The position numbers were made by a program, and so were the translations under genes. From contig NC_087084.1 of NCBI RefSeq assembly GCF_026151205.1, positions 12,117,453 to 12,181,452 of the forward strand: a DNA stretch of 64,000 nt. The letters run 5' to 3'. Shown in pieces: positions 12,801-62,712 of the stretch; the stretch's first letter is position 1, and the number at the start of each line of letters is the position of its first letter. Under the pieces are notes generated by a model. It ran no database searches. It had not been told where the DNA came from and saw only the letters and a list, made by a program, of their open reading frames with translations. This stretch comes from Bolinopsis microptera (taxonomy: Eukaryota; Ctenophora; Tentaculata; Lobata; Bolinopsidae).

Positions 12801-15800
12801 ATATGTTTTATGCTGCTTTGTATATATGTACTCACAGTGAACATTATGTTGATCAACCTGCTCATTGCTATTTTCTCGAACACTTATTCTGATTCTAAAG
12901 CCAAATCGGGTACGTGGATTTTTGATAGCATGACTTTTTTGTTTTAAGTTCAAAAGATACTGATTGCTCGATTGTTAGTGGGCACTTGAGCTATATTAAT
13001 TGTTCTGACACATGACACATTGATAGCCACTAACCCTTATCTTAGAAAAAAAAACTCTTCACCTTCACATATAAATCCAGTGAACTTATTAAGTTAATAA
13101 GTTCACTGGATTTATCTTAATGTGTTAATAATAATATTAATATTGATAATGCTAACCCATTGCAGGTATAATCTACAAAACACAGCGGGCTAGTGTAATA
13201 GTTGAGTTTGAAGAGAGACCGTGGCTGCCAAACCCTCTCAGTCTTATCTATTTTGCCTGTGTTTCTCCCTTCAAGATGCTGAAGAGTTGCTGTGGGAAGC
13301 AGCGGCGTTACAGCAGCGCCAGGAAGGGTAAACATGGAATTTATCGTGTGTTTTTTTTTTGATAATTGATTTTTAGATAGTAAAAATTTGTACAAAATTT
13401 GAACTAACTTAAAGTACAAATTATTGTAGTACAGAAATCTTTTTTGGAGATTTGAGTCTTTCACGCATTTATTTATCAGACAGTAGGAAAGCATCAGACT
13501 CTAATACAGCCGCTCGTGCGCGGAGAGCTCAACTAATAGAAGCTGAATGCATGGTGTTACACCTCAAAAAAGAAACCAACAAGAAGGATGGACTTGTCAT
13601 TTTAGAAGCTCAGAACAAGAAAATTTCATCCGCAGTCGAAAAAATCGTTAGCGAATTGAAACAAATAACTTTAAAACAGCACAAAGAAACTTTATGGGTC
13701 TGACGACGAAGCGGCTCGGTATGAACGCTTTTGGGAGCACAGTATCCCAAGCCATGCAGGCTCATCAAATCCACAAATACTCAGTTCCGCACAAGTATTC
13801 CCTCACTCCAGACGGTTACTCTAAGTACGGCTTCACCCGGGTGCCGGTACCTCGGGATACCATAGACTGGGACACTCCATTAGACTTTTACGATCCGCCC
13901 GAATTCACAGACGAATCAGCCAACACAGACGAGCCATTGTACCCAGATAAACTTCAGTTCAATAATGATAATGGCACTGTTAATAGACTCAGTTATGATC
14001 GGCCATATCGTGTTGATATCACGGATCCTCTTAACGTTCACGGCCGGACGGGTTTGAGAGGAAGGGGGATTTTTCCAAGATGGGGTCCTAATCACTACGC
14101 TATTACTGTCGTCACAAGGTAAAGAGTTTTTAATTACTACGCTATTACTGTCGTCACAAGGTAGTGAATACATCCGTCCGCATAATGAATAATTTATAAT
14201 TTATAATTTTTTTTTTTTTTATCAATAAACTTTCAAATTGTTACACAAATACATCATTTTATTTCAAAGAAAATATCGCCGAATGACCTTACATGCCTTG
14301 ACAAGTGACCGAGTGTAAACAAAATAAGGGACACCGAAACACCAGTTGACCAGTAAACTGATCATAGCAATTACATCGGGCCCTAAATGCACCTATAAGT
14401 GAAGCGATGCTGCAACCAAGGCATGCTAGGTTTATTCCATTGAACTAATAAGGTTACAGCCTAAAATATAAATATAATAAATAACAATGTACCATAAATC
14501 ATAATTATAAACACACTTTATTTAACATATTTTATTAATTATACTTCATATCAATTTATATTTAGACAATATAGTTACATTAAGGTAAATTATTTAACTG
14601 TCAGAGGATGTTATATGGTCGTTTAGAACTGTCCAGAGGTACTTAATTAAATGGGTTTTAAACACGGATGGCCTTGAGATTTCCCTTAATTCATAAGGGA
14701 GTTTATTCCAAAGAATGTGTGCTCTGTAAAAGTAAGACTTAGATATGCCTGAACATCTGGTCTGGCTTGACGTAAGGTTTTGTGGAACTTGAGGAGAAAT
14801 GTCACTAATCATACTGAGATCGTCTAGATGTGATCGCCTTAACCTACTTCCCATGAAACGTCGTAAGTAAGGTGGAAATGTCACAACTGACATGTCATAA
14901 AAAATATTATGAAAATATAATATATCCTTGTAATCAAACCTTACCGAGAGTGGAAGGATATTTAGTTCCTTACACGCTATGAAATACCTTTTTTTGTCCC
15001 TAAGGCTCAAGTAAATATCATTAAGGATCCACTTGATACCTCTTTTTTGTATCGATTCAAGTTTCTCCACCGAGGTTTCTGAATGAGGCCGCCAGACAAT
15101 TGTGCAGTGTTCGAAATGACTTCTAACCTGAGATAGATAGAAGGCCCGACGTTTTTTAGTGTTCTTGGTGAAGTAACATGTTCTTTTTAGAAGGCCTAAC
15201 CTCTGACTAGCCTTAGAGTATATCATATCACAGTGATGTGACCAATCTAACTTACTATTGATATGTACTCCAAGATCTTTTTCAATGTCTGTGTATTCGA
15301 TAGCCGTTTCATTCATTGAGTACACAAAATTAACACTACGATTCATAGAATATGCTCGGGTAATAGAAAGAACGTGACTTTTTGAAGGGTGAAACACCAT
15401 CTTATTATGATGAGCCCAATTTTGAAGACTGTTAATATCCCGCTGGAGCAGCCAATGGTCATCCTGGGACGTGATTCTACGCCATATTTTTGTATCATCA
15501 GCATACATGGTTATATTTGTTTCCGTTGACAAATCCTCTGTAATGTCATTAAGAAAAAGTATAAATAAAGTAGGCCCTAAAATTGAGCCCTGGGGGACAC
15601 CTGATCTAACCTGACAGGGAGCAGACATTTTATTTCCAATGACAACCCTTTGGTATCTGTTTTCAAGGTAGCACTTGAAGAATCTCAGTAGAGATGCATC
15701 AATGTTATATTGTTCTTTGAGCTTCAACAGAATTATGTCGTGGTTGACAGAATCAAAAGCTTTTTGGAAATCAAAGTATATTATGTCAGTGCGAACATTG

Positions 15801-18525
15801 TCATTGAGAGATAGGGCTAAGCTGTCACAGAAATTTACTAGCTGAGTTGTACATGATTTCCTACTCATAAAACCATGTTGACGTTGATCAATAAGATGTT
15901 CACATCGATTGAGCAATTCATCCCGGATTACTTTTTCGTAAACTTTCATAATAATGCTTGTCAGAGAAATTGGCCTATAGTTGTTAACTTCAATTTTAGA
16001 GCCTTTTTTATGAACTGGAACAACGTTTGCCATTTTCCAATCTGCTGGAATACATCCAGTTTTATAAGAAGCTTCAAAAAGGATAGCAAGAGGCTTAGAC
16101 AGGCTCACTGAACAGTACTTTAAAATTCTTCCATGGATATTGTCGGCCCCTTGCGCTTTACTTGGATCAATATTTTCAAGTAAACCTTTGATTTTACAAG
16201 TGTCGAAATTGACCTGAAAATCACGGTCACTGGAAAAGTCGATATCTATATCATAATCACTACCCTCTGTAAACTGTTCGTTAAAATATTTATTGAATAA
16301 CTCACACTGTCCTTGCGGATCGGACCGTAGGCAACCATTGTAGCTGACTGTTTCAGGAATGCGATTAGAGTTTGATTTAGATTTCACAAAAGACCAGAAC
16401 TTTTTGTTAATGAGATTTCTGTTATCATCATCTTCAAAGTTTGCGTCCAATTTTGCATCAACGAGATTTTTAAAATCCCTCCTAGCTTTGGAAAATTTTA
16501 AATATTTTTTTGGATTAGAAGACTGTTTCCATTCGTCATGTAGTCGCTCCTTTTTTCTACATAAATCAAAGACATCTGAGTCAAACCATGGGGGTTGAAA
16601 TTCATCGGAGACAGATATCTTAGGAATATGTGAATTACAATGAGAAGTGAAAATAGTATTGAAAACTGACCAGGCCTCTTCGACTGGTTTACCACTAAGT
16701 AGATGTTCCCAGTTTTCAGAATTCAGTGCATTATTTAAATTGGTCCAATTGGCCCTTTTGAAGCTATAGATTTTTCGTTTGGTAGACTTTTTCTTTCTAG
16801 CGTTAAGTCTTATGTCAAATCTTATCGCATAGTGATCCGACCCACAAATACCATGTTTACTGTCAACAATTAATTCTGATATAATTTCTGGCTTATCCGT
16901 CAAAACTACATCTAGATAAATTATACATTATAAATTTATAATTTATAATTTATAATTTATAATTTATAATTTATAATTTATAATTTATAATTTATAATTT
17001 ATAATTTATAATTTATAATTTATAATTTATAATTTATAATTTATAATTTATAATTTATAATTTATAATTTATAATTTATAATTTATAATTTATAATTTAT
17101 AATTTATAATTTATAATTTATAATTTATAATTTATGATTTATAATTTATAATTTATAATGTATAATGTATAATGTATAATGTATAATGTATAATGTATAA
17201 TGTATAATGTATAATGTATAATGTATAATGTATAATGTATAATGTATAATGTATAATGTATAATGTATAATGTATAATGTAAAATTTTCAGATGGTACCG
17301 GGCTGGAACCGGTAAGCAAGTTCACAGCAAAGAAAGACCAGTTATGGAAGTTTTACTTCTAAAAGACAAGAGCGAAGAGGACAAATACTTTCACATACCA
17401 TCTGTTCAGGTATTTTACAAATACTTTCACATACCATCTGTTCAGGTATTTTACAAATACTTTCACATACCATCTGTTCAGCTATTTTGGTCAACTTGAA
17501 GCTTCTTTTCTAATCCAGACTCTTTATATTTTTAAACAGTGTTCCCTGTAAAAAAAAGAGAAAAAAGAGGCCAGTTTCAATCATTAGGCTTACTGTATCC
17601 AAGGTTCTAATACGGGACCTAAAATAAATTGCTGCAATGCATTACTCATCTACGGTTGACGAAATGGTTCAATCAATGATAACTTGAATTTGTTCTGCAG
17701 CACTGCAATTAAGAAACAAATCCCCAGATCGATACGAACGACCCGAATAGATTCCAGAGTAAGCTGTTTCTTAAGAAGATGTGTTTCAACACACAGCAGT
17801 ACAGAAAATCTGATAATGATACTCATACGAAAAAGAGCATGTTCAGGAATTTGGCCATGGCCAGCCAAGATGATCCTGAACTTGATCGAGCTTTTCAGAA
17901 GCAGAAACAAGTTAGTTTTATTGCTTATTTTTTCATGTACAGAAGTGAAAAGTAAATCATGATTAAGAAATTAATAAGGTTTAATTAAGGCTAAAAAGGC
18001 ATTTAAAATTTATAACCGTCTAAAACTAAATTAAACTAATGTAGGTGTATCGGGGTTATTTTGATGATATCCACAACACTGATAACGCCTGGATGGAAGT
18101 GGATGTTATAAACGTTCACTTTGAGAAACCGCTTGCAGACAGACCTTTGGAGGTTTTTATTTCTTCTGCTTATATCATTTTAAATTCTTATATGCATCCA
18201 TTGTTTATTTTGATTATTCATAACCGTATTCTATTCAAATACGTAAACCTTTGACCTTAGAGTGCAAATGGCTTTACAAATCTGGAGAAAATCCTGGTAT
18301 CTTTGTTATCTTATTTTCAATTTTGTAACCCTTAAACTACTCGTTCTTGGTGTAATTTTTTTCATGATTAGTTACTTATTTCAGCCTGGGTCTCAGATAG
18401 CTTTAGCTTGTTGGCAACGGCTGGACAGCAAGGTTCCTGTTCACAACAATGAAGCGTGGCTGCTGAAGAATACTTGTCATATAAACAAAGCCTTCAATCC
18501 GTACAGTGGGGAATCGCTCCTGTGA
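84..18525 (+). CDS. TRPM2: TRPM2-like cation channel gene, 5' end outside window (31 exons traced)
   Basis: A calcium-permeable plasma-membrane channel of the melastatin TRP family, with a C-terminal NUDT9-homology (NUDT9-H) domain. Exons traced by GT-AG sites and consistent phase: 84-182, 376-487, 650-783, 1300-1437, 1754-1847, 2164-2244, 2467-2553, 3271-3393, 3699-3881, 4195-4310, 4989-5084, 5373-5528, 5728-5841, 5982-6094, 6389-6472, 6616-6844, 7028-7116, 7294-7475, 7640-7793, 10988-11148, 11503-11659, 11924-12080, 12344-12562, 12742-12909, 13166-13327, about 13480-14118, 17292-17409, 17728-17910, 18045-18152, 18385-18525 (stop). The exon at 13480-14118 needs a frame change and may be two exons. 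The order TRPM homology region, six membrane segments, TRP helix, coiled coil, NUDT9-H is that of TRPM2 and of no other TRPM. No start codon is in the window. A poly(A) signal AATAAA lies at 18754. I am very sure of the family; single exon edges are inferred. Confidence 0.93.
793..887. repeat. (TTTCAC)n microsatellite just inside TRPM2-like intron 3
   Basis: Perfect CTTTCA hexamer units, about fifteen copies, begin roughly ten bases downstream of the exon donor at 783/784. The array is pyrimidine-rich on the sense strand. Confidence 0.95.
6098..6288. mobile_element. Tigger/pogo-like MITE abutting a splice donor
   Basis: A 191-bp element with imperfect terminal inverted repeats: the left end CAGTAAAACCCAAATTTACC pairs with the right end GGTAAATCGGGGTTGTTTTA. 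It is flanked by TA (6096-6097 and 6289-6290). Short length, TA target and a CAGTAAAAC-type end are typical of non-autonomous pogo/Tigger elements. No transposase is present. The left TA is the +2/+3 dinucleotide of the donor of the exon ending at 6094. Confidence 0.75.
8726..9505. mobile_element. Harbinger-type MITE (outer element of a nested pair)
   Basis: The terminal inverted repeat GGGACCGTTCACT is perfect for 13 bp at both ends and continues imperfectly. It is flanked by a TAA trinucleotide on each side (8723-8725 and 9506-9508), the 3-bp target of PIF/Harbinger elements. Length is 780 bp and there is no coding capacity. It contains a run of 22 C at 8776-8797 and a second element. Confidence 0.75.
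8811..9395. mobile_element. Mariner-type MITE nested inside the Harbinger-type MITE
   Basis: The termini CCTTACAAGACATTTTT and its exact reverse complement are flanked by TA on both sides (8809-8810 and 9396-9397), as for Tc1/mariner elements. Inside is a direct repeat of about 40 bp beginning CGACGACCGAAATTTTGG at about 8846 and about 9308. There is no ORF of note. Confidence 0.7.
10095..10290. repeat. Minisatellite rich in CACGTG/ACGTGATCAC motifs
   Basis: Units of roughly 33 bp read ACGTGATCACAGTCCTAAAA then TATAGGAGTA, with small changes, about five to six copies. A related pair occurs at 10555-10612. Several units contain CACGTG. It lies in the long TRPM2-like intron. Confidence 0.85.
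10320..10443. mobile_element. Short MITE-like inverted-repeat element
   Basis: GGGAGGTGAACCATATTTC at the left pairs, with one mismatch and a small indel, with GAAAATATGATTCACCTCCC at the right. Both ends are bordered by ACA, which could be a 3-bp target duplication. The element is 124 bp and noncoding. Confidence 0.55.
14206..16920 (-). mobile_element. 5'-truncated LINE (CR1/L2-like) in a TRPM2-like intron
   Basis: A minus-strand retrotransposon copy. Its 3' end has a poly(A) run (T-run on + at about 14207-14220). Its 5' end breaks off inside the endonuclease domain at about 16918. Both edges sit in ATAATTT-type repeat, short at the 3' side and about 230 bp at the 5' side, so it probably inserted into a pre-existing microsatellite. 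It is antisense to the channel gene and should be spliced out. Confidence 0.85.
14594..16903 (-). CDS. LINE endonuclease remnant plus reverse transcriptase, 769 aa
   Basis: The polyprotein copies element RNA into the genome. The frame has no stop. It starts at the first Met after the truncation point, and the frame stays open for a few codons upstream (YLDVVLT). Near residues 21-26 the GSDHYA block is the last catalytic motif of an APE endonuclease; the earlier motifs are missing. The reverse transcriptase has YFDFQKAFD (catalytic Asp about 378), SGVPQGSILGP (about 434-444) and YADD (about 467-470). The C-terminal part is the usual thumb/connection region of CR1/L2-like LINEs. An intact frame suggests recent insertion, but the enzyme lacks a complete endonuclease and cannot be autonomous. 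Confidence 0.95.
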   Translation of the reverse strand: MTDKPEIISELIVDSKHGICGSDHYAIRFDIRLNARKKKSTKRKIYSFKRANWTNLNNALNSENWEHLLSGKPVEEAWSVFNTIFTSHCNSHIPKISVSDEFQPPWFDSDVFDLCRKKERLHDEWKQSSNPKKYLKFSKARRDFKNLVDAKLDANFEDDDNRNLINKKFWSFVKSKSNSNRIPETVSYNGCLRSDPQGQCELFNKYFNEQFTEGSDYDIDIDFSSDRDFQVNFDTCKIKGLLENIDPSKAQGADNIHGRILKYCSVSLSKPLAILFEASYKTGCIPADWKMANVVPVHKKGSKIEVNNYRPISLTSIIMKVYEKVIRDELLNRCEHLIDQRQHGFMSRKSCTTQLVNFCDSLALSLNDNVRTDIIYFDFQKAFDSVNHDIILLKLKEQYNIDASLLRFFKCYLENRYQRVVIGNKMSAPCQVRSGVPQGSILGPTLFILFLNDITEDLSTETNITMYADDTKIWRRITSQDDHWLLQRDINSLQNWAHHNKMVFHPSKSHVLSITRAYSMNRSVNFVYSMNETAIEYTDIEKDLGVHINSKLDWSHHCDMIYSKASQRLGLLKRTCYFTKNTKKRRAFYLSQVRSHFEHCTIVWRPHSETSVEKLESIQKRGIKWILNDIYLSLRDKKRYFIACKELNILPLSVRFDYKDILYFHNIFYDMSVVTFPPYLRRFMGSRLRRSHLDDLSMISDISPQVPQNLTSSQTRCSGISKSYFYRAHILWNKLPYELREISRPSVFKTHLIKYLWTVLNDHITSSDS
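16925..17282. repeat. Heptamer array (TTTATAA)n grading into (TGTATAA)n
   Basis: More than thirty perfect 7-bp units of AATTTAT switch near 17155 to about eighteen units of AATGTAT. The array stops nine bases before the acceptor of the exon starting at 17292. The single-base switch in the unit shows that the second block spread from one mutated unit. Confidence 0.97.
17381..17488 (+). repeat. Triplicated 36-bp exon end with its splice donor
   Basis: Three head-to-tail copies of a 36-bp segment hold the last ten codons of the exon 17292-17409, the donor and the first intron bases. The donor GT is intact after 17409 and 17445; in the third copy it is CT (after 17481). Because 36 is a multiple of three and the copy is open, use of the second donor adds twelve residues. 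Confidence 0.95.
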
Positions 18526-28939: not shown

Positions 28940-30860
28940 GAAGTGCTAAAGTTGAATAAGTTCATCTACTGTGTAATTACTATATAATCGACTAGCATAA
29001 TGATTTGGCTAAAATATAAATCTTGATATGATATAAGAACGGGAACGAAGTATTTAATTTTAATACCCGTGTTATTATTATTTTATTATTGATTGTTATT
29101 TTACTATTGATACGATCTGATACTCCTAAATTGCCCTTTACTGATGTGTCAAAGGATGAATCAGCCTTTACTGTGTGAGGCACTTTGTTCCACAGCTTCG
29201 GTCCTTGAACTGCAAAAGACCTGTCGTACAGTGACTGGTTGCGTAAGGAACTTGACTTTGACAATGAGGGTATGACAGCTACATCCCCGTGTCTTGGGGT
29301 CACCTTGAATTTGATATCACAGCAGTTTGGTACCACATTATGGAGAATCTTCCACATCATCAGGATGATATACCTCTCCCGTCTGCGCTGTAGAGACATC
29401 AATTTAAGCTGTACGAGTCTTTCCCAATAGTTGAGATGTTGCAGACCGCCAATACGACTGGTGAAAGTTCTTTGCACCCCCTCTATCAGCTGTATTTCAG
29501 TCACCTTGGTAGGGCTCCAGAGTGGGCAGCAATACTCTAGTAAGCTTCTTACTAGTGACTTGTAGAGAGTAATCATTACGGTCTTGTCGCGAGTTTTGAA
29601 CACACTGAATACCCAAGATCCTCCTTGCTTTGGGTACCATGTTGCCGATGTGTGTCGACCAGCTAAGATCACTTGAAACCATAACTCCAAGATCTCGGAC
29701 GTTTTCGACAGGATAAAGTATGTCCTGACTGGATACTTTGTAACGCAGTGTTTCGGCAAAGAAGGGTAGTTCGGGGAATGAGCTCTTACTGTTATGGAGG
29801 TGATTTAACAGCTCGAACTTCTGCTCGTGAAGCTTCATGTTGTTGCTACGTGACCAGTCAAGAATCTTATAGATATCTTCTTGTAACAACTGACAGTCTT
29901 CAAAACAGCCAATCTGTTTGGAGACTCTAGTATCATCGGCGAAAAAACTCACCCTAGATGAGTCCACTACTTGTTCTAGATCATTGATGAACAAGATAAA
30001 GAGAAGCGGCCCCAAAACGCTTCCCTGGGGAACACCACTTAAAACCTTTGCGATAACCGAGTGAACTCCATTAAGCACCACGACTTGTTCGCGATCAAAG
30101 AGAAAGGACTTTATCCACTCTATGAGCTTGCCATGAAACCCATATTTTCTCAGCTTGTGAATGAGAAGATTTAAGTCGACTTTATCGAACGCCTTAGCGT
30201 AATCCAGATATATAGAATCTGTATCTTCACCACGAGTAAACCCTTCGTAGATGTCGTCAAAATGGCCGAGCATTTGAGTCAAGCAGCTCCTATTCGCTCT
30301 GAAACCATGCTGCTTATCGGTCAAGAGACTGTTGGCTTCCAAATACTCCACCATATGTTTCCTTACCACTCTTTCATACACTTTTACAACATGGGAGGTC
30401 AAAGTGACAGGTCTGTAGTTTCCAGCTTCACATCTACTGCCTTTCTTGAATAGTGGCGAAACATAACCCGTCTTGTAGAAGCTTGGCACTATACCAGATG
30501 ACATGGACTCTGACCACATAAGATAAATCGGGACACTAAGGCTGGTAGCACACCTTTTGAGAAGAATAGCTGCCAGCTGGTATTCCATCGGGTCCAGGGG
30601 CAGAGTCTAGCTTAATTTCAGATATAGCTTCCATGATACTATCAGGTGTTAACACAATGTCATTGTCTCTACTGATAAGGGGTGGTACCGCAAATGTAGG
30701 GACTGCTGTGTCGGGACAGGTAGGGTCGCTGAAAACGGAGCAGAACTGTTGTTGAAGGATGTTGGCGAGTTCTTTCCGTTCAGTGACTAGTTCCTTATTG
30801 TCGTTCAGGAGGGTAGAGATGTTGTGTTTCACTTTGTTGTGTTTCACTTTGAATTATTAT
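28940..30860 (-). pseudogene. Broken LINE with reverse transcriptase in three frames
   Basis: A minus-strand CR1/L2-like copy, read in three successive frames: 30847-30536 (region before the RT, ending SAPGPDGIPA), 30588-29497 (RT core with YLDYAKAFD, SGVPQGSVLGP and FFADD) and 29759-28992 (C-terminal domain with RRRERYII, WKILHNVVPN and GPKLWNKVP). At least two frameshifts separate them, so no complete enzyme can be made. Endonuclease sequence is absent at the 5' side. It lies inside the 28253-31276 block, antisense to its ORF. Confidence 0.92.
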
Positions 30861-50916: not shown

Positions 50917-51378
50917 ATGTAGTAGTAGTAGTAGTAGTAAACCCGCGATGGGGTGGCATGTGCCTCAATAAAAATATTACAATCATTTATTATTATATCA
51001 ATTTATCGTTAAATATTTCAAAAATATCAATAACGTATGGTTGATCCTTCACACTTGGTAAAATATATAAAAATAAAGTTAATCTACACTAAAGAATAAA
51101 TAATCTATATTATATAAATCAACAATATTAACTCCCCATCTTCTTGTAGTCATTTATCAAAGCGGTAGAAATCCAAGTAATTTTAGTACGCGGTGCGCAA
51201 GGAATTTCGTTTTAAAATATGTGTAGGCAAGATAAGCCTAAGTGTGGCAGTGAAAATTGAAAATAAGTTGCAGAATAAATTGCAGTGACTGACTGTCAAA
51301 TGCATTATCGCAGTTCATTTATTTGACTGCACTAACGTTTAGGATTCTTACAGCTGTTATATTTTGCTAATATTTTGT

Positions 51379-54300
51379 TTAAAAGTTGTAAAGGACAAAG
51401 TTCTTGTCCGTCCACGAAAGGTTTTCTAGGTCAAGTTTTTGTTTGTCCTGTAAGTAACGTACAATGTTGTCCTTGTATGAATTAATAAACTTATCTTGTA
51501 ACTTAGGTACGTTGAAGGGAAGGATTTTATTTATTTCGTTTATCGTGTTGTTATATAATCGTGGTCCTACGTTAGAGATGCTATAATCGGTGATCCGTAA
51601 TCTGTTGAACTTAATTTCAAAATACTTTGGATTTCTCCTTTCCGTTTGTCTAAGCGGTGATTTTTCAAATATACTACAGATACTCGATGGTGCTACTCCC
51701 ATATAAACCTTGTGCATCAAAGTTAGACAGCTTTTAGCAATGAGATTAGGAAGAGCTAAAATTCCTATTTTGTTGAAGATGGATTTTGTGTGAGATGGTA
51801 GTTTACGTTTTTCTTTGTCGTAAAAATAGTTATGATATTCTGAATCAGTGGCGCGAATAGCTTTCTTTTGAGCAGAGAATAAAGACTGAATGGAATTTAA
51901 AGATTTAGTACCCCAAACAGTAGCGCAGTAATACAGGTGAGATTGAATTAAACTATTGTATAGCATTTTTTGAGCTTTATTCGGAATGGAACTTTTAAGT
52001 TTCATCATTACGCCTGCATTTCTGGATATTTTAGTCTTTAACTGTTTAATGTGCTGGCTCCAGCTAAGTTTTGAGTCAATAATGACACCTAAAAATCGTT
52101 CATGTTCACTTTTCACTAGTCGCTGTCCTTCTATACTAATATTTATATCCTCTGGTAATCTGTTAGTGAATATCATGTATTTAGTTTTTCCTACATTAAG
52201 TTTAAGACCGTTGTTTTTAACCCATGTCTGTACAGTATTTAAAACTCTGTTTGCACGCATGTTCAGTTCAGTGTACGTGTCGGCAGAAACGATGATGTTT
52301 GCATCATCAGCGAAGAAAATATAATGGGCTATATCGCTTACATTTGCAAGGTCGTTTATGTAAATAATGAACAATATAGGACCAAGAATGGACCCTTGAG
52401 GAACTCCATGTTCCAATCCCATTTTTTCTGAACTGCAACCGTTGACGTGAACATACTGTTTCCGGTTAGTTAGATAAGACTCAAACCAGGATAAGCTAAG
52501 GCCTCTTACACCATAGTGCTCCAGCTTATGTAGCAGTATCTCACTGTCTACTAGGTCAAACGCCTTGGAGAAGTCAAGAAGCAGTAATGCTGACACTTGC
52601 TTCCTTTCTAGAGCTTTATGTAAGTTAAACTGAGCTTCAAGCAACGCATGTTCACAACTGTGACCCGATCTAAAACCAAATTGCGACGCATATAGAATAT
52701 TACGTGATTTTAGGTGCTTTACTAAACGTGCATGCATTATTTTTTCGAATATCTTTGAGAAGCAGGACAAAAGTGAGATTGGTCTGTAGTTTGTAATTTC
52801 GCTGCGCGATCCTCCTTTATGGAGTGGGATAACCTTAGCAAGTTTGAGCTTTTCGGGGAATACTCCTTCGTGAAGGGAGTGTGAGATCAGGTGATTAACT
52901 ACTGGAGACAGCACATTGCAAACCTTTTTAAGAGGCTGTATATTCATATCTGAAGTCGATTTGTTCTTAAGATCATGTATGATTTCAGCAATTTCGGAGG
53001 GCGAGGAGTCCTCCAGCTCCATATCAAAATCACATCGACTAGATTGGGGAAGAGAATGTCCTACTGATCCTGCACCGCGAACCAGATTGTTTTCGCTCTT
53101 TAGGTTCTCAGCTATATTAGTAAAATAATCATTAAAACTGTCAGCTATATCTTGTGAGTCGGTTATAACTCTATTTTTATAGTTAATCTTACTTATTTTT
53201 ATTTTTTCTTTTGATTTCTTGTTTAATATTTGATTAATCATTTGCCATTGTAATTTGCTATTGCTCGCATGCTTTTTAAAATATGATGCGTAATACTTCT
53301 TTTTCGCAATATCTACTTGTTTTTCAACAAACTTTTTCATATGCTTATAAGTTTTTTCATTTTTTTCAGTAGGCTCTTTAACAAAGGATTTATATAGTTG
53401 GTTCTTTCGATTGCATGCACATTGAAGCCAATCTAATATCCACGGTTTAGAGTTTTTTCTGTGGTTTGATTTTTTCTTTTTAACTGGAAAACACTCATTA
53501 TAGACTTCTTCATATTTAGTGTGAAAAGCTTCAAATTTTGTATTTGTCCCGTCAACGTTGTGTAAAAAATTCCAATCAATAGACGCTATTTTCTCCTCAA
53601 AACGAGCGATTTTCTCTTCATTTATTACTCGGTTTGATGATTCACAAGTTTCATTTTTCAATTTATTTCCTATTCTATTAGTGTCGAGAAGTATGCCGGT
53701 AAATGTGGCAAGGTGATCAGATAGCGATTCAGTTATAATGCCTGACTTTGTTATAGCATGGCATTGGTTTACGAAAATGTGATCAATAAGTGTAGCACTG
53801 TGACAAGTAATACGAGTTGGTCGTGATATCGTTGGTGCGAATCCATACTCTGCAAAAATATCAACATATTTAGTAGTATGGTCATTTACGCCGTATTCTA
53901 ATAGATTAATATTGGTATCACCTAGAAATAATACGTTTTTGTTGCTATGTCGCGCCAAATCTTTTAGGGTGTTTTCCAATTTTTCTAAGTAACTGGGGAC
54001 ATTACCACTGGGAGACCGATACATATTGCATAGTATGATGTTTTTGTGGCCATTTTGAGCTATCTCTATTAACTGAAATTCGCCAACGTTTGGATCATCT
54101 CTATAAGATAATTCAGATCGTGCAGTGACATCAGATAATTCACAGAGATTCTTGTTTACATAGGTTACTAGACCACCGCCCTTACCAGAGTCCCTTGCGG
54201 GAGCCTGAATAAAGGGGGGATGAAAGCCTTCTAACTCTAATTCTTTTCCTTGAAAAGCCATATTTACAACCGTGCAGTTTGTTTCGTTGAAACACAGAAC

Positions 54301-55047
54301 ATCAAATTTTAGGTGCTGTTCAATTTCATCACGTATATTAGAGATTGCTTTGCTCAAAGATCGAATATTAAGAGATTGTACTTTAAATTCATAAGGCCTA
54401 CTCGTGTTGATTTGCCGTGGTTCGTAGTATTTACAGCTATTTAGTACATCTGAGCAGTTATCCCACGGATTAAAGTTTAAGTCATTGTTTTCTTCAAAAG
54501 TATTACCTATATAATTAGAGTCATGGTTTCTATGGTATGGGTTAAATTTTGCGCTATTCTCGTAATTACCGTGTACGGTGTATAATTGTCTAGGTGATAC
54601 CTCGAAACCAGGAAACAATTCACGTGTGCAGCTTTTGCATCCTAACTCGCCCGCTGAGCATTTATTGTGCGAATAAGCGTCGCATATCCAGCAAACCGCC
54701 ATTTTTGATTTGTTTCCTAGCTTTTTACAAGTTTTGCAACTCACCCTGGCAAAACTTACTTTAGATTTAGCTTTTGTTTCTGTACTACAGGGTATGTAAG
54801 TGTTACACGAATTTTCATTAGTTAGAGTGGTAATATCAGTATTAGTAAACGGAAATATGTCAGTAGTACATGCCAAACAATACCAGTTTATGAGACTATT
54901 GTCTAATTTCATTCGATTTACGTCATTTGGTTCAAGATTAGCACATTTCCGATGAAAAATACCGTTACAAAGGCTGCATTTTAGCGGATCTTTACGTTCT
55001 AAACATTTTTTAGAACATAATCTACATCTACAAGACTCTTTGCACAT
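51379..55047 (-). CDS. LINE ORF2: PHD-like fingers, APE endonuclease, reverse transcriptase, 1222 aa
   Basis: This protein nicks target DNA and primes reverse transcription of the element RNA. Two Cys4-His-Cys3 PHD-like fingers lie at residues 6-60 (CRLCSKKC, CSLCNGIFHRKC, CLAC) and 104-140 (CKTC, CWICDAYSHNKC, CKSC). The endonuclease spans about 222-455 with Asn/Glu at LNIRS and FNET (Glu 255), GDTN (Asp 377), IDH (422-423) and SDH (443-445), so the catalytic set is complete. The reverse transcriptase spans about 730-1000 with LLDFSKAFD (Asp 825), GVPQGSILGP (881-890) and FADD (Asp 914-915). The start Met at 55047 is followed directly by the first finger. An unbroken frame with all catalytic residues suggests recent activity. 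Confidence 0.97.
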   Translation of the reverse strand: MCKESCRCRLCSKKCLERKDPLKCSLCNGIFHRKCANLEPNDVNRMKLDNSLINWYCLACTTDIFPFTNTDITTLTNENSCNTYIPCSTETKAKSKVSFARVSCKTCKKLGNKSKMAVCWICDAYSHNKCSAGELGCKSCTRELFPGFEVSPRQLYTVHGNYENSAKFNPYHRNHDSNYIGNTFEENNDLNFNPWDNCSDVLNSCKYYEPRQINTSRPYEFKVQSLNIRSLSKAISNIRDEIEQHLKFDVLCFNETNCTVVNMAFQGKELELEGFHPPFIQAPARDSGKGGGLVTYVNKNLCELSDVTARSELSYRDDPNVGEFQLIEIAQNGHKNIILCNMYRSPSGNVPSYLEKLENTLKDLARHSNKNVLFLGDTNINLLEYGVNDHTTKYVDIFAEYGFAPTISRPTRITCHSATLIDHIFVNQCHAITKSGIITESLSDHLATFTGILLDTNRIGNKLKNETCESSNRVINEEKIARFEEKIASIDWNFLHNVDGTNTKFEAFHTKYEEVYNECFPVKKKKSNHRKNSKPWILDWLQCACNRKNQLYKSFVKEPTEKNEKTYKHMKKFVEKQVDIAKKKYYASYFKKHASNSKLQWQMINQILNKKSKEKIKISKINYKNRVITDSQDIADSFNDYFTNIAENLKSENNLVRGAGSVGHSLPQSSRCDFDMELEDSSPSEIAEIIHDLKNKSTSDMNIQPLKKVCNVLSPVVNHLISHSLHEGVFPEKLKLAKVIPLHKGGSRSEITNYRPISLLSCFSKIFEKIMHARLVKHLKSRNILYASQFGFRSGHSCEHALLEAQFNLHKALERKQVSALLLLDFSKAFDLVDSEILLHKLEHYGVRGLSLSWFESYLTNRKQYVHVNGCSSEKMGLEHGVPQGSILGPILFIIYINDLANVSDIAHYIFFADDANIIVSADTYTELNMRANRVLNTVQTWVKNNGLKLNVGKTKYMIFTNRLPEDINISIEGQRLVKSEHERFLGVIIDSKLSWSQHIKQLKTKISRNAGVMMKLKSSIPNKAQKMLYNSLIQSHLYYCATVWGTKSLNSIQSLFSAQKKAIRATDSEYHNYFYDKEKRKLPSHTKSIFNKIGILALPNLIAKSCLTLMHKVYMGVAPSSICSIFEKSPLRQTERRNPKYFEIKFNRLRITDYSISNVGPRLYNNTINEINKILPFNVPKLQDKFINSYKDNIVRYLQDKQKLDLENLSWTDKNFVLYNF

Positions 55048-55614
55048 CTTTAATTTGCAAAGTATAACTATAGATTACTGGTTATATGATATACGATAGA
55101 TTACTGATTATCAATATAAAATTAAAGATCTAAAGAGATTTATACAGGAACTGTGGGTCAAGAAAACGGGTTAAGTTTTATGTTTGACTCCTAGTTCCAA
55201 AATCAGTCAAAATCTGGTTAAATAATTGATTAAATAGTTAAAATATTTAAATATAAATACACTGAATTTACTCCAGTAATTCTACGCTTGTGTTGTGTTG
55301 AAATTAGTTCGCGGATTTATGTTGTTGTTATCTGCAATTTTGCTTATAACCGGTTCAGATAAGATAAGAAAGAGTAAAAAACCGTTTAAAATTTACTGTG
55401 ATACATTTACCATGGTCTATAAGCCATCGCAATAAAAAATAATTTATGATTTGAAAAGAAAAAAGAAGATAAGGGACTTGCTGTTTTTGAAAAATTTGAA
55501 CTTAGGTACTTTCTGTGAACGTTACTATACGTTTAGCTTTGAAAAATTAAATTTGTTCAAAATTGTGTTGTAAACGATTATGTATTCGCGACGAAAAATT
55601 TGATTTAAGAATTT

Positions 55615-57447
55615 CTACTGCATTGGCAAAAGAGATCGGAACTCATCCCTTAAAGGCCACACCTCTTCGATTACTGTCGGTCTTCGCCTGGCCAGTTCAA
55701 TGATGCAGTCCAAGAGACGCGAAACGATCCCTTTCTTGGCTGCTAAGGTTAGATGAATACCGTTCCCATTTGGATCTAGTATAGTGCACCTTTTCCTCAC
55801 CAGCTCAAAGCATATTTGATGCGAGTCAAACATCAATAGATTTTCAACCTTCGTGGTTAAAATAAATAAAGACTCGTTAAACCTACGAATTTCTGGATTT
55901 AGCCAGTGATAAGTGGTTAGTGTTATGGAGTTAAAGATGAATGTGGTGTTTGGGTATCTCTCACAATAAGTACGCAGATCATTCGCCACGACATCAAACA
56001 ACGAGTAAGAACGGTGATTATACCTGGACAAATCGTTGATGCCTGCCGAGATCACCACGTAACTCATGTGAGGGAATAGGTGCTCAAACTTGTGGAGATC
56101 AGTGATTTTGTACATTGTCTCCTTGGTGCATGGCAAGTGAGTAGGAAACAAGCTGACGGGTGTGGTTGAATGAATTGAATCCGTCAATAGCAGAACACGT
56201 TCCGTTGGAATCGGAGTCGGGTCTGTTTCTGGTCTACTAGATTGGCGGATTGGTGGTATATGCTGTGGTGTGGTGGGAGCTGAGAGTCTGCGAAAAGTTA
56301 GTGATAGTCTCTCGCCTTGTGCTGTGGGATCTGCTTTAATACCATGTTCCCAAAAGTCCTGGGAGGACCTTGACATGCAATAAGTCTGCCCGTGTTTGAG
56401 GTGTATGGATTGTGTCGTGAGAGGTCCTATTTTGCTGCGGAAGTCAATTGTTCGGGTAGCACCGAGACTGACTGTGATTATGTTACTGGGATTGACGATG
56501 CAAGCTTCGTTGTCACTGTGCATGGGAATTGAAGATTTACCGTTCTCATAACGAGTAAGAAGGCAAGTTATGTTGTCTGTGGTGAATGTTGGGTCTTCTG
56601 TGTGATGAGCGATTGAGTCTATGATTTCAAGGAGTGGGTGATTCGTGGGAATATCAAGTGGTTTGTGTACTGTTCTGCCATAACGATACTCTGTTCTACC
56701 AAAAAATGCTGTCTGTCGATGCCCTATCTTAGTGAAATGTACTCCGTGGCAAACTGTCTCCAGGTCTAAATGGTCAAAGTTTATATCACACGGTTCAACA
56801 GCACCTGGTATAGTTGGTAACGTCACCGTGTTGAGCTGTGCTGGTGGTGGCGGTGGGGTTGATGGAAGAGTTCTTCTAGAGTTGGCGGCGCTTTCATAAG
56901 CTAACATGTCCGTGATACACTGTTTCGCTGCCGCTATCGACTCTGTTAGCTGTCCAGTAATCCTCGCATGATGGCTTTCTGCTTCTTGAAGTTTCTCGGA
57001 AATGAGGGAGGTTACGGAAGTGAACTGATGCAAATTTTTAGAAATATCATCTACATTGCTAGTTAGGTGTTGCTCTAGGTGTTGCTTTAAATGTTCATAG
57101 GCATGTGCCTTTCTATCCCTAGTTAGCATCCCTACTCCTATTGTATGATCTGTAAAACCACAGATTGTTGAATGGTATTCCGATTCATGTTTAAGTTGTT
57201 CTTCTGTCAGGGTTGAGAAGAGCTCTAAACTTGTTTTAGGAGATAATAGTGCCGTCCTAAAAGTTTTATCGTACGTACCGTCTTGTTGTGGGGGTACCAG
57301 GCAGGTCTTTGAAGAGGTAGTGAGTGGGTCACTACCTGGTAGCCCCTTGTCATCTGGTGAAGGATTCGTCTCGTGAGGTGGGTGGGTGGTTGGCTGATCC
57401 AATAAGTTGAGCGCGGCGTCGACCATGGTAAATTTTCTTATCAGCAA
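55615..57447 (-). CDS. LINE ORF1: coiled coil, AlkB-like 2OG-Fe(II) oxygenase, SGNH esterase, 610 aa
   Basis: This should be the RNA-binding/chaperone ORF of the LINE. Residues about 80-185 are helical and coiled-coil-like, followed by a Pro-rich linker (194-203). Residues about 215-388 look like an AlkB domain: LLTRYENGKSSIPMHSDNE gives the iron ligands His 310 and Asp 312, VSLGATRTIDFR follows, His 368 (WEHGI) is the third ligand, and R380-x-S-x-T-x-R386 is the 2-oxoglutarate motif. AlkB enzymes remove alkyl groups from nucleic acids by oxidation; the closest pattern I know is the AlkB domain of plant flexiviruses. Residues about 416-590 are an SGNH/GDSL hydrolase: LLTDSI (Ser 424), SAGINDLS (Asn 471) and GNGIHLT (His 565), as in the esterase of CR1-like LINEs. 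Both domains keep their active-site residues. A second Met at residue 8 is an alternative start. Confidence 0.93.
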   Translation of the reverse strand: MLIRKFTMVDAALNLLDQPTTHPPHETNPSPDDKGLPGSDPLTTSSKTCLVPPQQDGTYDKTFRTALLSPKTSLELFSTLTEEQLKHESEYHSTICGFTDHTIGVGMLTRDRKAHAYEHLKQHLEQHLTSNVDDISKNLHQFTSVTSLISEKLQEAESHHARITGQLTESIAAAKQCITDMLAYESAANSRRTLPSTPPPPPAQLNTVTLPTIPGAVEPCDINFDHLDLETVCHGVHFTKIGHRQTAFFGRTEYRYGRTVHKPLDIPTNHPLLEIIDSIAHHTEDPTFTTDNITCLLTRYENGKSSIPMHSDNEACIVNPSNIITVSLGATRTIDFRSKIGPLTTQSIHLKHGQTYCMSRSSQDFWEHGIKADPTAQGERLSLTFRRLSAPTTPQHIPPIRQSSRPETDPTPIPTERVLLLTDSIHSTTPVSLFPTHLPCTKETMYKITDLHKFEHLFPHMSYVVISAGINDLSRYNHRSYSLFDVVANDLRTYCERYPNTTFIFNSITLTTYHWLNPEIRRFNESLFILTTKVENLLMFDSHQICFELVRKRCTILDPNGNGIHLTLAAKKGIVSRLLDCIIELARRRPTVIEEVWPLRDEFRSLLPMQ

Positions 57448-59330
57448 ACGAATTTCATGCGTAATGTAAAAGACAAATATATATGCGGTGTAGTATACTT
57501 ATATACAATAGTGTACACTACTCATAGACAAGTGTGCTCTGCAGCATAATTACTTTGTGCATGTGTAGCTGTAAAACAAGCTAAATATTATTTTATTTTA
57601 TAATTTAAGTTAGATATTTTCATTGGAGACGACTATTCCTTAGAATCGTTTGATTATGGAGTTGATAAATAAATTATGCGACTCATCTGATACGTTACTA
57701 TATTTCTCCTTAGGTTGTTTAAATTGAGTTTTTCAGAAAATTAAATAACTGCAGATATTCACGTATCCAACATGAACATTGAGGCTGATGTAAAAACTGT
57801 AAACTACATTAGGGCTTATGTAAAGTTGCTATGTAACTCCATTTTAGCATGTAAATACCCATTACGAGAATCATATTATACCATATTGTGTAACGAGATT
57901 ACTGAAATGAGCTGAGAATTGTATCAGGCTAAATCTGATTGCTATTGAGTGTTCTAACTTTATAACCTCATTTTGTAGCTCCCATCTTACAGTCCAGATG
58001 AAGGTGAGAATGAAAATTGAACAATTTTTACCCATCTATTTGTCAAACAAGTATAGTTTCTACTGGCCTTGTTAGTAGACATTTACACTCATGGATCCGT
58101 CCCTCAGACTAAACTTGTGTCTGTAACTAATGTTTAGGACTTTAGGAGGATACGACCATGACAGACTCAGTGAATCTAGGTACCCTCTAAGAGACAGGAC
58201 TGGATTGCCTCTCTAAAAGGACGTCATATGATGTTATAATACTATTTGTCATACAAATTTCCAGGACCACTGTCTAGAAGTGAGCAGACAGGCAAATGTC
58301 ATGTGCCAAGTGAGGGTTAGATGGGTAAAGGTAGTGCCGTGCAATTATTAGCTCTTGCAATTAGCTATTAATTAGCAATAATAGCTTATTATTGCATCTC
58401 ATTGTTCCTCCTCGTCGTTCCTTTTGTCTTGTAACCATGACATATATGGGTTTGTAGAATTACGGCTAATCCCAAACACACGGACTAATTCCTGCCCTCG
58501 GAATTTCCTGGTTTGCATGCTTTAGATTTTCATTTTATCCCATACTTTTCATCACCAAATAAATACTCACAACCAATCAAGAGATCTAAATAAAATGACA
58601 AGAATTCAACTAGAAAGTTAAGGAATGCCATCAGTAACATGAAAATAGATTCCCCGCATAGATCCCCTTGTCCACAGTCCACTTCACCCACACACCCACA
58701 CTGTGTGTCAAACATGTTGTGTTAACATTTCAGCCGTCACACTAACAGCACTGGCCACATATATCCTGCATTTAACCAATTACTCCGCTTTAATTAACCT
58801 TTAGAACATACGTAACAAGCAACATTCCGTGGCTTGACAAGTGAATTGGGCAGCCGAGTCAGCCGTGTTATAGAGTTGTAAGCTATTTTCAATGCTGGTG
58901 AGCGGGTTTCCTGGATTAGTACGTTGTTGGTGTCCGTGATTTTGTTAGTGAATTATGAACGTCAAGGAGTCGCGACTGTCGACACGTTTTGTTGCTTTAA
59001 TGTTGGGCTGACTCCACGTCGTGATGATAGATCATACTCTTTGTCTTTGATATTTGGGAGTTAAGTAGTATTGCAAGTTCGTGGTCTTTGTGATCTAGTC
59101 CTGACGACCTGACTGTGTGATTTGGTCGAATATCCTACTAATACCACCTACTACGTGATCCTACACGTGTTCCTACACCTACTACGTGATCCTAAACTTG
59201 TTGACCTAAAGCAAGATCCACATTCTAGTTCGACTCTAGCTCTACAGTATACACGTTATTGATCCTGGATCGTCCCGGCTGGAGAACTGGTCGGCTATTT
59301 ACCTGGTTCTCGAGGATCCTACCTGTTGTT
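57448..59330. other. Spacer; LINE 5' UTR at left, possible promoter at right
   Basis: No coding exon was recognised. The first one to two hundred bases should be the 5' UTR/internal promoter of the LINE. The right part holds repeated CCTACTACGTGATCCTA and CCTACACCTACTACGTGA words (59145-59195). Confidence 0.5.
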
Positions 59331-59784
59331 ATGAACCACTTCGTTGTAGGGGGTATGGCTCTATCAGGGGCCTCCGCTATCCTCTATGGTATTGTTAGAT
59401 ACGTTTCCAGTTTTGATAGCCAAATATCGGATAGTAGAGTCAGGGATAGCCGAGATACGGATCATGATATAGACCAGTGTGAATCTTATTCTGAGTGTTG
59501 CGAAACTTGTGATGAGACAACTTGTAGGTCCACAGAAGCTGAGTCAATGACGGAGGATGGAAATAATAAGTGTATCTGTGCAGTTCTCAGAAGTCTGGAA
59601 TGTACAGAAAATTCTGTTACACATGATAAGATAGATCCAGGGACAGTCAGTAAAGGTGAAAATGAGGAGGCATGGAGTGACTTCACTTCTACATTGTATG
59701 CTTTTGAGGGAGAGTTGGATCTGTCTGATGTGTCAGAGACTGAGGATCCTACTATTATAGAGGACGGAGAGTTCGCTTGTCAAG
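59331..59784 (+). CDS. Putative first exon of an unidentified membrane-anchored acidic protein
   Basis: From the ATG at 59331 a hydrophobic N-terminus (GGMALSGASAILYGIVRYV) would be a signal anchor. It is followed by a strongly acidic, Cys-rich region (CESYSECCETCDETTC) and more acidic sequence (DLSDVSETEDPTIIEDGEF). The frame runs on through a 21-bp repeat to 59990, but a donor (CAAG/GTAGTG) at 59784 is the more likely end, phase 1. Exons starting in phase 1 lie at about 61208 and 62249. The family is not recognised and the gene model is tentative. Confidence 0.45.
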
Positions 59785-59786
59785 GT

Positions 59787-59970
59787 AGTGCCAGGGTAAC
59801 GGGGTTTGTTGCCAGGGTAACGGGGTTCGTTGCCAGGGTAACGGGGGTTGTTGCCAGGGTAATGGGGTTTGTTGCCAGGGTAACGGGGTTTGTTGCCAGG
59901 GTAATGGGGGTTGTTGCCAGGGTAACGGGGGTTGTTGCTAGGGTAACGGGGGTTGTTGCCAGGGTTACGG
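59787..59970. repeat. 21-bp minisatellite (GCCAGGGTAACGGGGTTTGTT)n
   Basis: About nine units start three bases after the putative donor at 59784. Read in frame they would encode ARVTGFV repeats. Each unit contains AGGGTAACG, a donor-like word. Confidence 0.93.
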
Positions 59971-61207
59971 TTTTTTTTTTCTCATACTAAAATAACGTGG
60001 ATAATGGTTTTTTCCTCCCTGTCAAATGTAATTTCCAACAACACTCCTATTATTTTTTTTCAATAATAAGAAACTAGAATGTGTACAGACTACCCACCCA
60101 CACCCACTTAAAGGAAGAGTAATATGTTGAGTGTTAACCCAATATAAATATTCAACTAAATGGTATCCCTTTGAAGCACCTGTCAGCTGTGTTTGCCAGC
60201 GTGCAGCTGTGGTTAATTAACTTTAATTATCATAATGAGCAGAACTTGCTGAGGCCCCCCGGCCTTTAAGACATTTACACTGGTTCATAAGAAGTAACAT
60301 TGGGTTGTACAGGAAGTTTCCGATGTTGTGTTATGTTGGACAGTATAGAAAATCTAGTAAGAATGCACAACTCTATAATATAGTGAATAATATACAGTAA
60401 TGTATTATAGTAAACACAGTGTAGAGCTCTAGAAGCAAGACACTGGATTATAACAAATGTACATTACATGTGATTAAGTGTACCGTATGCAGTAGGGACC
60501 CATTGTACAATACACCGTATCTATATAATTACTGCACCACTGCTCACTGCTCATATCCTAGATGATTACAGTATGAATTTGAAGCAGCAACCTACAGTCT
60601 GCACGCTTCCGCAACACTTGCACTTTAACGTTTATTAGAAAAGATAAAGGAGTTATAGGAGAATGGTGACATCCTGCCCAAATGTACTTACAGAGAATAT
60701 CACCTAATTAATTAACTAATTAATTAACTAATTAGCAGTAGACACAGTGTTTTGTAACGTGTTCCAAGGAAAACATGGGTAAATTGGGTACTTACACTCA
60801 ATAACTCTTATCATTGGGAAAGCAGCGACTGGTTTAGCTACTCTAACTAAGATCACATTAACTTTAAAGCAGCAGTTGCTTTACAGTTACTGTAGTTTTG
60901 TTTAAAATGTGGCATAGCTTCGTAAATCCCGATTGTCTCAAATGAATCTGACAAGTTTTGTCCTAGAGAAACCTTTTAGTGATATCCGTATTTGTCATAA
61001 AACAAGCCTTCAAGCCTTCAAATATTTCTCACGGCTACATAACTCTTTCGTTGTTAAATTTCTTTAACTCTAACTCCGACGAGACAGCCAGCACGTGATG
61101 CTTTTGTTACGTACAAAAATAAAATACAATCATTATCTAAAATATTTCTTAACACGTGACGGCGTATTTTTAGGATCAAGTGCGAAATTCTCGAGCATAA
61201 CAATCAG

Positions 61208-61468: not shown

Positions 61469-62248
61469 GTTACCTAGTTACCTAGTTACCTAGTTACCTA
61501 GTTCATACTACTATAACTGATAGATCGTATCACTTCATGATTTATACACAATATTATTTCAATGTTAATACTACTATACATTTTCTGCTACTGTTCAATG
61601 GGGCCAAGTTCAGGGACATAGAGAAAAAATGGAAACGATTCGAATCTTGTAAAGTTCCAGCATAATATGTGCTATCATTATATAAGAAAATAAGATCGGC
61701 TCATTTTTTAAAGATTTAAGTTACCCTACCAATTCGTACTACCTGTCGCAGTTTCTACCAATCCATAGATATTTAGTTCCAAATATAAAATACCTGTCAC
61801 AGACCTTGGAATTTCTCCGACATGAGTCTATATCGAGCTCGTACCAACACTCAGACACCTGCTGGAACTCCCAGAACTTAAAAATATCAGCCACAAAAAC
61901 CTTCTTATTGCGTACCAGCTGGTATTTCTAGAACGCTTTGTGTTGGTTTTATAGCCGAGAATTAAAAGATCTCGGTACCATTACACTAATAATCTGCATT
62001 AATCGTCCATTGTTCGATATAATAGTACCTGTCTTGTTGACAAGTACTCTGAAAATCGGTTAAATCCAAATTTATTTTAGGAAAAATGCAATTAATTCTG
62101 GATAGGACATCGACTAAATCGTAAAAATGTGAAATTTGAAAATCATTTCTGCTATAACAGATTAAGATTGATATACATTGAATACTAAAAGACTATGATC
62201 AAATTGATGTGATAATAAATAATTATCTTTAACATGATATTATTTCAG

Positions 62249-62349
62249 GTATAGTGTCTAATCTAGGAGCGCTCAGAGATGAGAAACATGAGCACGACGA
62301 GTTACGACAAGAACAGCTTTCTGAGCTAGAGGGACAGTTCGAATTCAAG
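62249..62349 (+). CDS. Coiled-coil exon of the 61-62 kb gene
   Basis: A good acceptor (TATTTCAG) in phase 1 and a donor after AAG at 62349 (phase 0) enclose IVSNLGALRDEKHEHDELRQ and a further helix (LSELEGQFEFK). The heptad pattern suggests coiled coil. It splices in frame from the exon ending at 61468. A possible next exon begins at 62551, right after the (TTTG)n array. Confidence 0.5.
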
Positions 62350-62550
62350 GTTTGTTTTTTTTGTTTGTTTGTTTGTTTGTTTGTTTGTTTGTTTGTTTGT
62401 TTGTTTGTTTGTTTGTTTGTTTGTTTGTTTGTTTGTTTGTTTGTTTGTTTGTTTGTTTGTTTGTTTGTTTGTTTGTTTGTTTGTTTGTTTGTTTGTTTGT
62501 TTGTTTGTTTGTTTGTTTGTTTGTTTGTTTGTTTGTTTGTTTGTTTGTAG
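62350..62550. repeat. (TTTG)n microsatellite filling a putative short intron
   Basis: About 47 near-perfect TTTG units run from the donor at 62350 to TTTGTAG at 62550, so the whole putative 201-bp intron is array. The ORFs of repeated CLFV or NKQT across it are artefacts of the repeat. Confidence 0.97.
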
Positions 62551-62712
62551 CCCACTCCCAGTTTACCAATCCCTGTTTACACATCAAGGACTGGGGCAAA
62601 AAGAAATGACAATTCTTTTGCTCCTCCTATATGTTTTCTCCACAGCCGCCTCAATGTTAAGAAAATTGGCCGACTTTTAGACCAAATTCTTGGTATTAAT
62701 AGGGAATTTTGA
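62551..62712 (+). CDS. Possible terminal exon after the (TTTG)n intron
   Basis: In phase 0 after TTTGTAG the frame runs 53 codons (PTPSLPIPVYTSRTGAKRND, later RLNVKKIGRLLDQILGI) to a TGA. Length and phase allow it as last exon of the 62-kb gene, but the sequence to its right looks like eroded coding DNA, so it may be a transposon remnant. Confidence 0.25.
   Translation, partial: PTPSLPIPVYTSRTGAKRNDNSFAPPICFLHSRLNVKKIGRLLDQILGINREF

Follow-up and report, generated by a model that had tools for sequence, protein, structure and literature searches.

The esterase-type first open reading frame (ORF1) of CR1/L2 long interspersed nuclear elements (LINEs) was reportedly described by Kapitonov and Jurka in 2003. 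LINEs of this kind have a second frame (ORF2) with an endonuclease and a reverse transcriptase (RT). In the Type IV (esterase) ORF1, e.g. of zebrafish ZfL2-1, a coiled coil is followed by an SGNH domain (PMC3905857, PMC4120745; papers cited by PMC identifier were available in part), and the catalytic triad of ZfL2-1 is D279-H282-S143 (PMC3905857). The CR1/L2 lineages include elements with PHD domains, which in one subgroup probably open ORF2 (PMC4120745). Esterase ORF1s come from chordates, cnidarians and sponges in PMC3905857 and from vertebrate groups only in PMC4120745, in which the word AlkB is absent. Here we describe a LINE on the minus strand of a 64,000-nucleotide stretch of the ctenophore Bolinopsis microptera (the window; GCF_026151205.1, contig NC_087084.1, positions 12,117,453 to 12,181,452). 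The element is an intact member of a LINE family in which ORF1 joins a long helix, an AlkB-type dioxygenase domain and an SGNH fold. It differs from Type IV ORF1s in the AlkB domain that lies between helix and SGNH part, and in the absence of the triad Asp. By its anatomy it is a putative member of the CR1/L2 lineage.

Anatomy of an AlkB-bearing LINE

The whole insertion, with borders set where alignments of same-family copies stop, spans about 6.55 kb (50920..57480, minus strand, as are all parts of the element); in these inter-copy alignments, copies of its family (family A) are 98.5-99.1% identical. It has a 5´ leader of about 54 nt up to the first ATG and a short (TAC)n tail at its 3´ end. 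ORF1 (55615..57426) is 603 aa long counted from the first ATG, or 610 aa if counted from a TTG at 57447. Its N-terminal part contains a long helix, putatively a coiled coil (residues 112-188; 56884..57114), which AlphaFold2 places at 105-181 of the 603-aa chain with a predicted local confidence (pLDDT) of about 58-83. The 2-oxoglutarate (2OG)-Fe(II) dioxygenase domain of AlkB type follows (56290..56739; Pfam residues 237-386, the fold starting at about 212), and then the SGNH-hydrolase-like domain (55690..56205; residues ~415-586), in which Ser424, Gly469, Asn471 and His565 are present and Asn replaces Asp at His-3. ORF2 (51379..55047; 1222 aa) opens with a PHD-like zinc domain (54868..55026), seen as a Cys/His pattern with a PF00628 match under the curated cut-off (E 0.0051). 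Downstream are an apurinic-type endonuclease (53713..54375; PF03372, 2.8e-11) and an RT with an FADD motif (52078..52797; PF00078, 3.3e-37). These two ORF2 domains, together with copies whose 3´ ends are a short repeat or an A-rich tail, identify the element as a LINE. Candidate target-site duplications elsewhere are a repeat of at least 25 bp (L022; L designates genomic stretches, P proteins and C contigs), a 16-bp match near the ends (L013) and a match within a tandem repeat (L024); at the window copy and most other copies inspected, no clear duplication was found.

The AlkB domain scores 69.9 bits against PF13532 (curated cut-off 31.2), and the same family is found in 29 of 29 members of set A1 at E<=0.01. 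Profile and structure searches both return the AlkB fold, with cellular ALKBH2 and ALKBH3 as best matches. A chance motif is ruled out by profile, structure and conservation across families. In an alignment of 50 ORF1s (20 genomic rows and 30 protein clusters, which are not independent), the HxD...H iron ligands and both Arg residues of the C-terminal motif are kept in all 49 domain-bearing rows. The SGNH blocks retain Ser (49/50), Gly and Asn (49 of the 49 rows that reach them) and His (47/47), and the triad Asp is found in a single row, P0028, of the 47 that reach it. The oxygenase is thus complete in its catalytic residues and the esterase is not. The preliminary description, made from the letters of this stretch, was right about the LINE setting, the domain calls and the presence of AlkB in ORF1. 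Neither of the outcomes that it named as refuting was observed, since profile and structure searches hit AlkB and the domain and its ligands are kept in the other copies and families read. It also called the second domain an SGNH esterase with Ser, Asn and His; the residues are there, and the label needs caution because the triad Asp is absent from the window's LINE group. That Asp is visible by eye in the related frames L035, L043 and L044 and in the Helitron frames L033 and L041, described below.

Copies, other carriers and relatives

The genome searched comprises 264.65 Mb in 232 contigs. It contains at least 72 matches to the ORF1 protein (72 of 831 candidates scored), 66 of them free of internal stops with partial matches counted; 12 rows are 93-100% identical and the other 60 are 34-46% identical. 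Eight rows (L001-L008), seven of full length and one covering residues 1-515, are 97-100% identical over at least 515 residues and lie on five large contigs; with AlkB matches on every one of contigs C1-C13, they rule out an assembly chimera. An ORF2-type frame lies downstream of ORF1 in all 20 stretches fetched and is of full length (>1150 aa) in 13. Copies fall into families A-F, 97.3-99.8% identical within a family where aligned. Their borders are sharp, with short 3´ repeats or an A-rich terminus, and several carry interruptions or truncations. Between single representatives of the six families, ORF2 identity is 38-85%. With family C and L026 left out of the count, the AlkB part has a ratio of non-synonymous to synonymous change (pN/pS) of 0.20 in family A (21 pairs) and 0.14 in family B (6 pairs); family D shows no changes, and family E 2 synonymous and 0 non-synonymous ones. 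One copy, L020, joins L009 and L016 in the ORF1 tree (100/99) and L022, L025 and L027 in the ORF2 tree (100/100), a conflict from which ORF1s seem to have been exchanged between LINE families. The 5´ ends of L009, L016, L024 and L027, from different LINE families, have a similar short leader with ATTACGCAT, and part of it seems to be duplicated in L013 and L017.

The same AlkB domain is present in other ORF1-type layouts and in Helitrons of this genome. A search with PF13532 gave at least 151 matches (150 of 587 candidates scored), the control giving matches in 3 of 14 genomes. Two are the host genes ALKBH2 (L029, 4e-60) and ALKBH3 (L030, 2.5e-39). A further ALKBH3-like frame (L031:1063-1950) falls with ALKBH3 in a tree of 38 rows; an SGNH frame lies 0.7 kb on, on the same strand (2662-3438). 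Among the few others read in letters, L043 has AlkB and SGNH followed by an endonuclease frame (PF03372, E 7e-4, under its cut-off), and L035 has the same layout with the endonuclease frame recognized by eye. L044 has a weak PHD, AlkB and an SGNH-like part, with an endonuclease-like frame downstream that is seen by eye and has no Pfam match. L045, of a putative element class, begins with AlkB and continues with a helical stretch and an SGNH-like part.

Helitrons end in 5´-TC and a 3´ hairpin with CTRR, and insert at A/T targets. One frame of 3388 aa (L041:4383-9899 and L042:2-4645, G000:C10:16874382-16884545) encodes, in order, SGNH (under cut-off), a Pro/Ala-rich stretch, AlkB, DUF6570, Helitron_like_N (Rep) and a PIF1 helicase. 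Its Rep (PF14214, 5.6e-23) and helicase (PF05970, 4e-22) identify it as a Helitron, and its SGNH-AlkB order is the reverse of that in the LINE ORF1. Between the AlkB domains of the Helitron frames L033 and L041, a simple count gives 31 synonymous and 14 non-synonymous changes (pS 0.230, pN 0.030). A search with Helitron_like_N returned 41 matches (51 of 51 candidates scored; control 0/14), and when its matches are compared with those of AlkB by position, strand and length of frame, six frames (2225-3388 aa) contain both: C10:16875843 (3388 aa, the one read in letters), C12:8338315 (3366 aa), C3:14441692 (3321 aa), C9:15868177 (3226 aa), C12:2469580 (2459 aa) and C9:11092850 (2225 aa). An SGNH match lies in or beside five of the six, at C9:11094299 across one stop; for the C12:8338315 frame there is none among the matches listed. 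The other 35 Helitron_like_N matches have no AlkB in frame among the matches listed, so that AlkB marks a subset of the genome's Helitrons; three of them (C12:816078 and two pieces at C10:4306300-4306693) are less than 4 kb from an AlkB match on the same strand. The module is absent from at least one ORF1-like relative, known as a protein sequence: in P0030 (377 aa) the ORF1 profile aligns at 54-182 and 362-554 with nothing between, where AlkB would sit.

In a tree of 51 domains, a branch with 98/93 support, the bootstrap being not yet fully converged, sets apart 26 AlkBs, those of LINE layouts 1-3, of Helitrons and of similar proteins. Across it stand the ALKBH2/3 of host and human, together with bacterial proteins and one from a Pandoravirus. 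By this grouping and by motif, the transposon AlkBs lie outside the ALKBH2/3 subfamily: all 21 transposon-type AlkBs compared have RxSxTxR, and the two ALKBH2 rows, the two ALKBH3 rows and L031 have RxNxTxR. Most of the remaining rows have Ser as well. In the 38-row tree the transposon branch had 93/79 support and the ALKBH2/3 side was also a supported branch (96/97), and P0058 and P0049, of unknown or bacterial-type label, fell on the transposon side (96/97). P0058 was dropped from the larger tree for its long branch after the 38-row tree had been seen, and P0049 then switched sides. Derivation of the main transposon group from host ALKBH2 or ALKBH3 is unsupported by both trees. The transposon-like rows P0039, P0042, P0180, P0182, P0186 and P0193 belong with the transposon group. 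L045, which may have been captured separately, has a long branch and falls among the cellular AlkBs, but a tree constrained to place it with the transposon group is not rejected (approximately unbiased test, p 0.34); neither is a single clade of LINE AlkBs without the Helitron pair (p 0.39). The simplest reading of these sequences is that the main group is one transposon AlkB lineage that spread between elements.

The ORF1 profile found at least 71 proteins (7989 candidates sharing most words scored), and 30 protein matches include a gene model of Mnemiopsis leidyi that extends from AlkB through SGNH into the endonuclease. This model (P0012, ACHWQZ_G001240) is apparently a LINE that was taken for a host gene in annotation, with pieces of ORF1 and ORF2 joined. 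P0187, filed as an AlkB of a Planctomycetes metagenome-assembled genome, is 45% identical to the window's ORF1 over 62% of its length and is probably a misbinned transposon fragment. A scan of viral contigs with set A1 gave 42 pattern matches and 0 relatives.

Elsewhere in the window are two more RT regions on the minus strand (14594-16903 and 28992-30588). Their frames (at 14594 and 29497) share 26-34% identity with ORF2s of the AlkB-LINE group and 36% with each other, which points to separate LINE lineages. Beyond the element's 5´ end are a minisatellite encoding ARVTGFV-type repeats (59259-59990, plus strand) and a long simple repeat encoding FVCL/KQTN-type repeats (62229-62680).

What the oxygenase may do

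The methylated bases 1-methyladenosine (m1A) and 3-methylcytidine (m3C) block base pairing, and they arise or are placed on single strands. Because LINEs and Helitrons both expose a single-stranded template, we favor, with a probability of roughly 0.55, that the domain clears the element's own single-stranded template of lesions of the m1A/m3C type, which would otherwise block its polymerase. The ORF1 protein would multimerize through its long helix and coat its own RNA. The AlkB domain, with its fold nearest ALKBH2/ALKBH3, would then strip methyl groups such as those of m1A and m3C from bases of the RNA, and perhaps of the first-strand cDNA; left in place, they would prevent Watson-Crick pairing and halt the element's RT during target-primed copying. 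In Helitrons, it would clear the exposed single-stranded DNA intermediate. Since its triad Asp is gone, the SGNH part of the LINE group may be a membrane- or lipid-binding module or a weakly hydrolytic one. PMC12140624 reports that AlkB removes m1A and m3C and that m1A impedes an RT derived from R2, although the effects on intact tRNAs are modest.

Several points weigh against template clearing. All 21 transposon-type AlkBs have RxSxTxR, compared to RxNxTxR in animal ALKBH2/3, and in most ORF1s of the group Thr precedes the 2OG-contacting Tyr where animal ALKBH2/3 have Asn; with two second-shell positions different, the substrate cannot be inferred from these enzymes. The pN/pS of AlkB in family F is 0.89 (one pair; 3 synonymous and 9 non-synonymous changes). 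In the SGNH part it is 0.19, 0.17 and 0.17 in families A, B and F, similar to that of AlkB in A and B, and constraint alone thus does not single out the oxygenase. The overall arrangement of the AlphaFold2 model of ORF1 is uncertain (predicted template modeling score, pTM, 0.45). Finally, of the many SGNH frames of 426-526 aa in the genome (150 of 424 SGNH candidates scored), many are not among the AlkB matches listed, so transposition may not need AlkB.

The strongest competitor, which we consider rather unlikely, is that AlkB removes a putative regulatory mark of the host, N6-methyladenosine (m6A) on transposon RNA or N6-methyladenine on DNA, and so allows the element to escape silencing rather than repairing its template. 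A mark common to LINEs and Helitrons would account for a domain found in both classes, and RxSxTxR sets the enzyme apart from ALKBH2/3. The AlkB of an orchid Gypsy element demethylates m6A in RNA in vitro (PMC9289625), but this domain is ALKBH5-like in the same source, whereas the best structural matches of the LINE AlkB are ALKBH2/3.

Less probable still is that AlkB favors the element by acting on host molecules (tRNA, mRNA or proteins), or is kept as a nucleic-acid-binding fold with irrelevant catalysis. AlkB proteins generally have diverse substrates. Esterase-containing ORF1s from RepBase are reported to be without RNA recognition motifs or other known structural RNA-binding domains (PMC3905857, available part), and an AlkB fold could supply binding. 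Yet binding alone would not need all five cofactor residues, which are present in all 49 domain-bearing rows, while the SGNH triad Asp was lost in 46 of the 47 rows that reach it.

Helitrons commonly capture host genes. Although a captured SGNH gene occurs in association with fish Helitrons (PMC4021074), chance resemblance, chimeric assembly or functionless capture of a single host gene is hardly credible: AlkB matches lie on each of contigs C1-C13, LINE families that have diverged from one another have ORF2 downstream, other data sets contain relatives, M. leidyi among them, and the proteins read keep the cofactor residues.

The preliminary description had placed the activity on the RNA of a LINE alone, which is too narrow now that other ORF1-type layouts and Helitrons of the genome are seen to carry AlkB. 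Recurrence of the domain in Helitrons suggests that the single-stranded template, and not just reverse transcription, is where the constraint lies. Beyond template clearing itself, we tentatively offer as one possibility that a module for demethylation moves between transposons of unrelated mechanism, Helitrons and several groups of LINEs, within one animal lineage, that methylation or alkylation of bases in single strands is a general barrier to transposition, perhaps an active host defense, and that AlkB is the counter-measure. An active domain would mean that these LINEs bring an RNA/DNA demethylase of their own within the protein thought to package the template, and would make it testable whether base methylation or alkylation limits retrotransposition. 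Such elements would also supply natural partners of AlkB and RT, which are now combined by hand in tRNA-sequencing methods.

Comparison with known systems

No report of AlkB in a LINE or Helitron was found in the open literature, as covered by titles and the starts of abstracts, with Repbase and subscription journals outside the search. Plant RNA viruses resemble the present elements in encoding an AlkB of the parasite's own, thought to act on its own RNA, and differ from LINEs in that no reverse transcription is involved. The nearest published case, which also mentions the viral domains, is that of Ty3/Gypsy elements in the orchid Phalaenopsis, where a transposon-encoded AlkB ORF has all cofactor residues and is an m6A demethylase in vitro (PMC9289625, available part). 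The orchid domain is a separate, ALKBH5-like ORF in one lineage of a long terminal repeat element, whereas those of the ctenophore have an ALKBH2/3-like fold and are fused into LINE ORF1s and Helitron frames of many families. Fish Helitrons with texim share an association with an SGNH hydrolase related to the CR1 esterases; texim is a separate, intron-bearing gene, while the ctenophore SGNH forms the N-terminus of the Rep-helicase frame, and the available part of the source mentions no AlkB for fish Helitrons (PMC4021074). The closest matches in both sequence and structure are the cellular ALKBH2 and ALKBH3, yet the transposon AlkBs lie across the 98/93 branch from them and have RxSxTxR in place of RxNxTxR.
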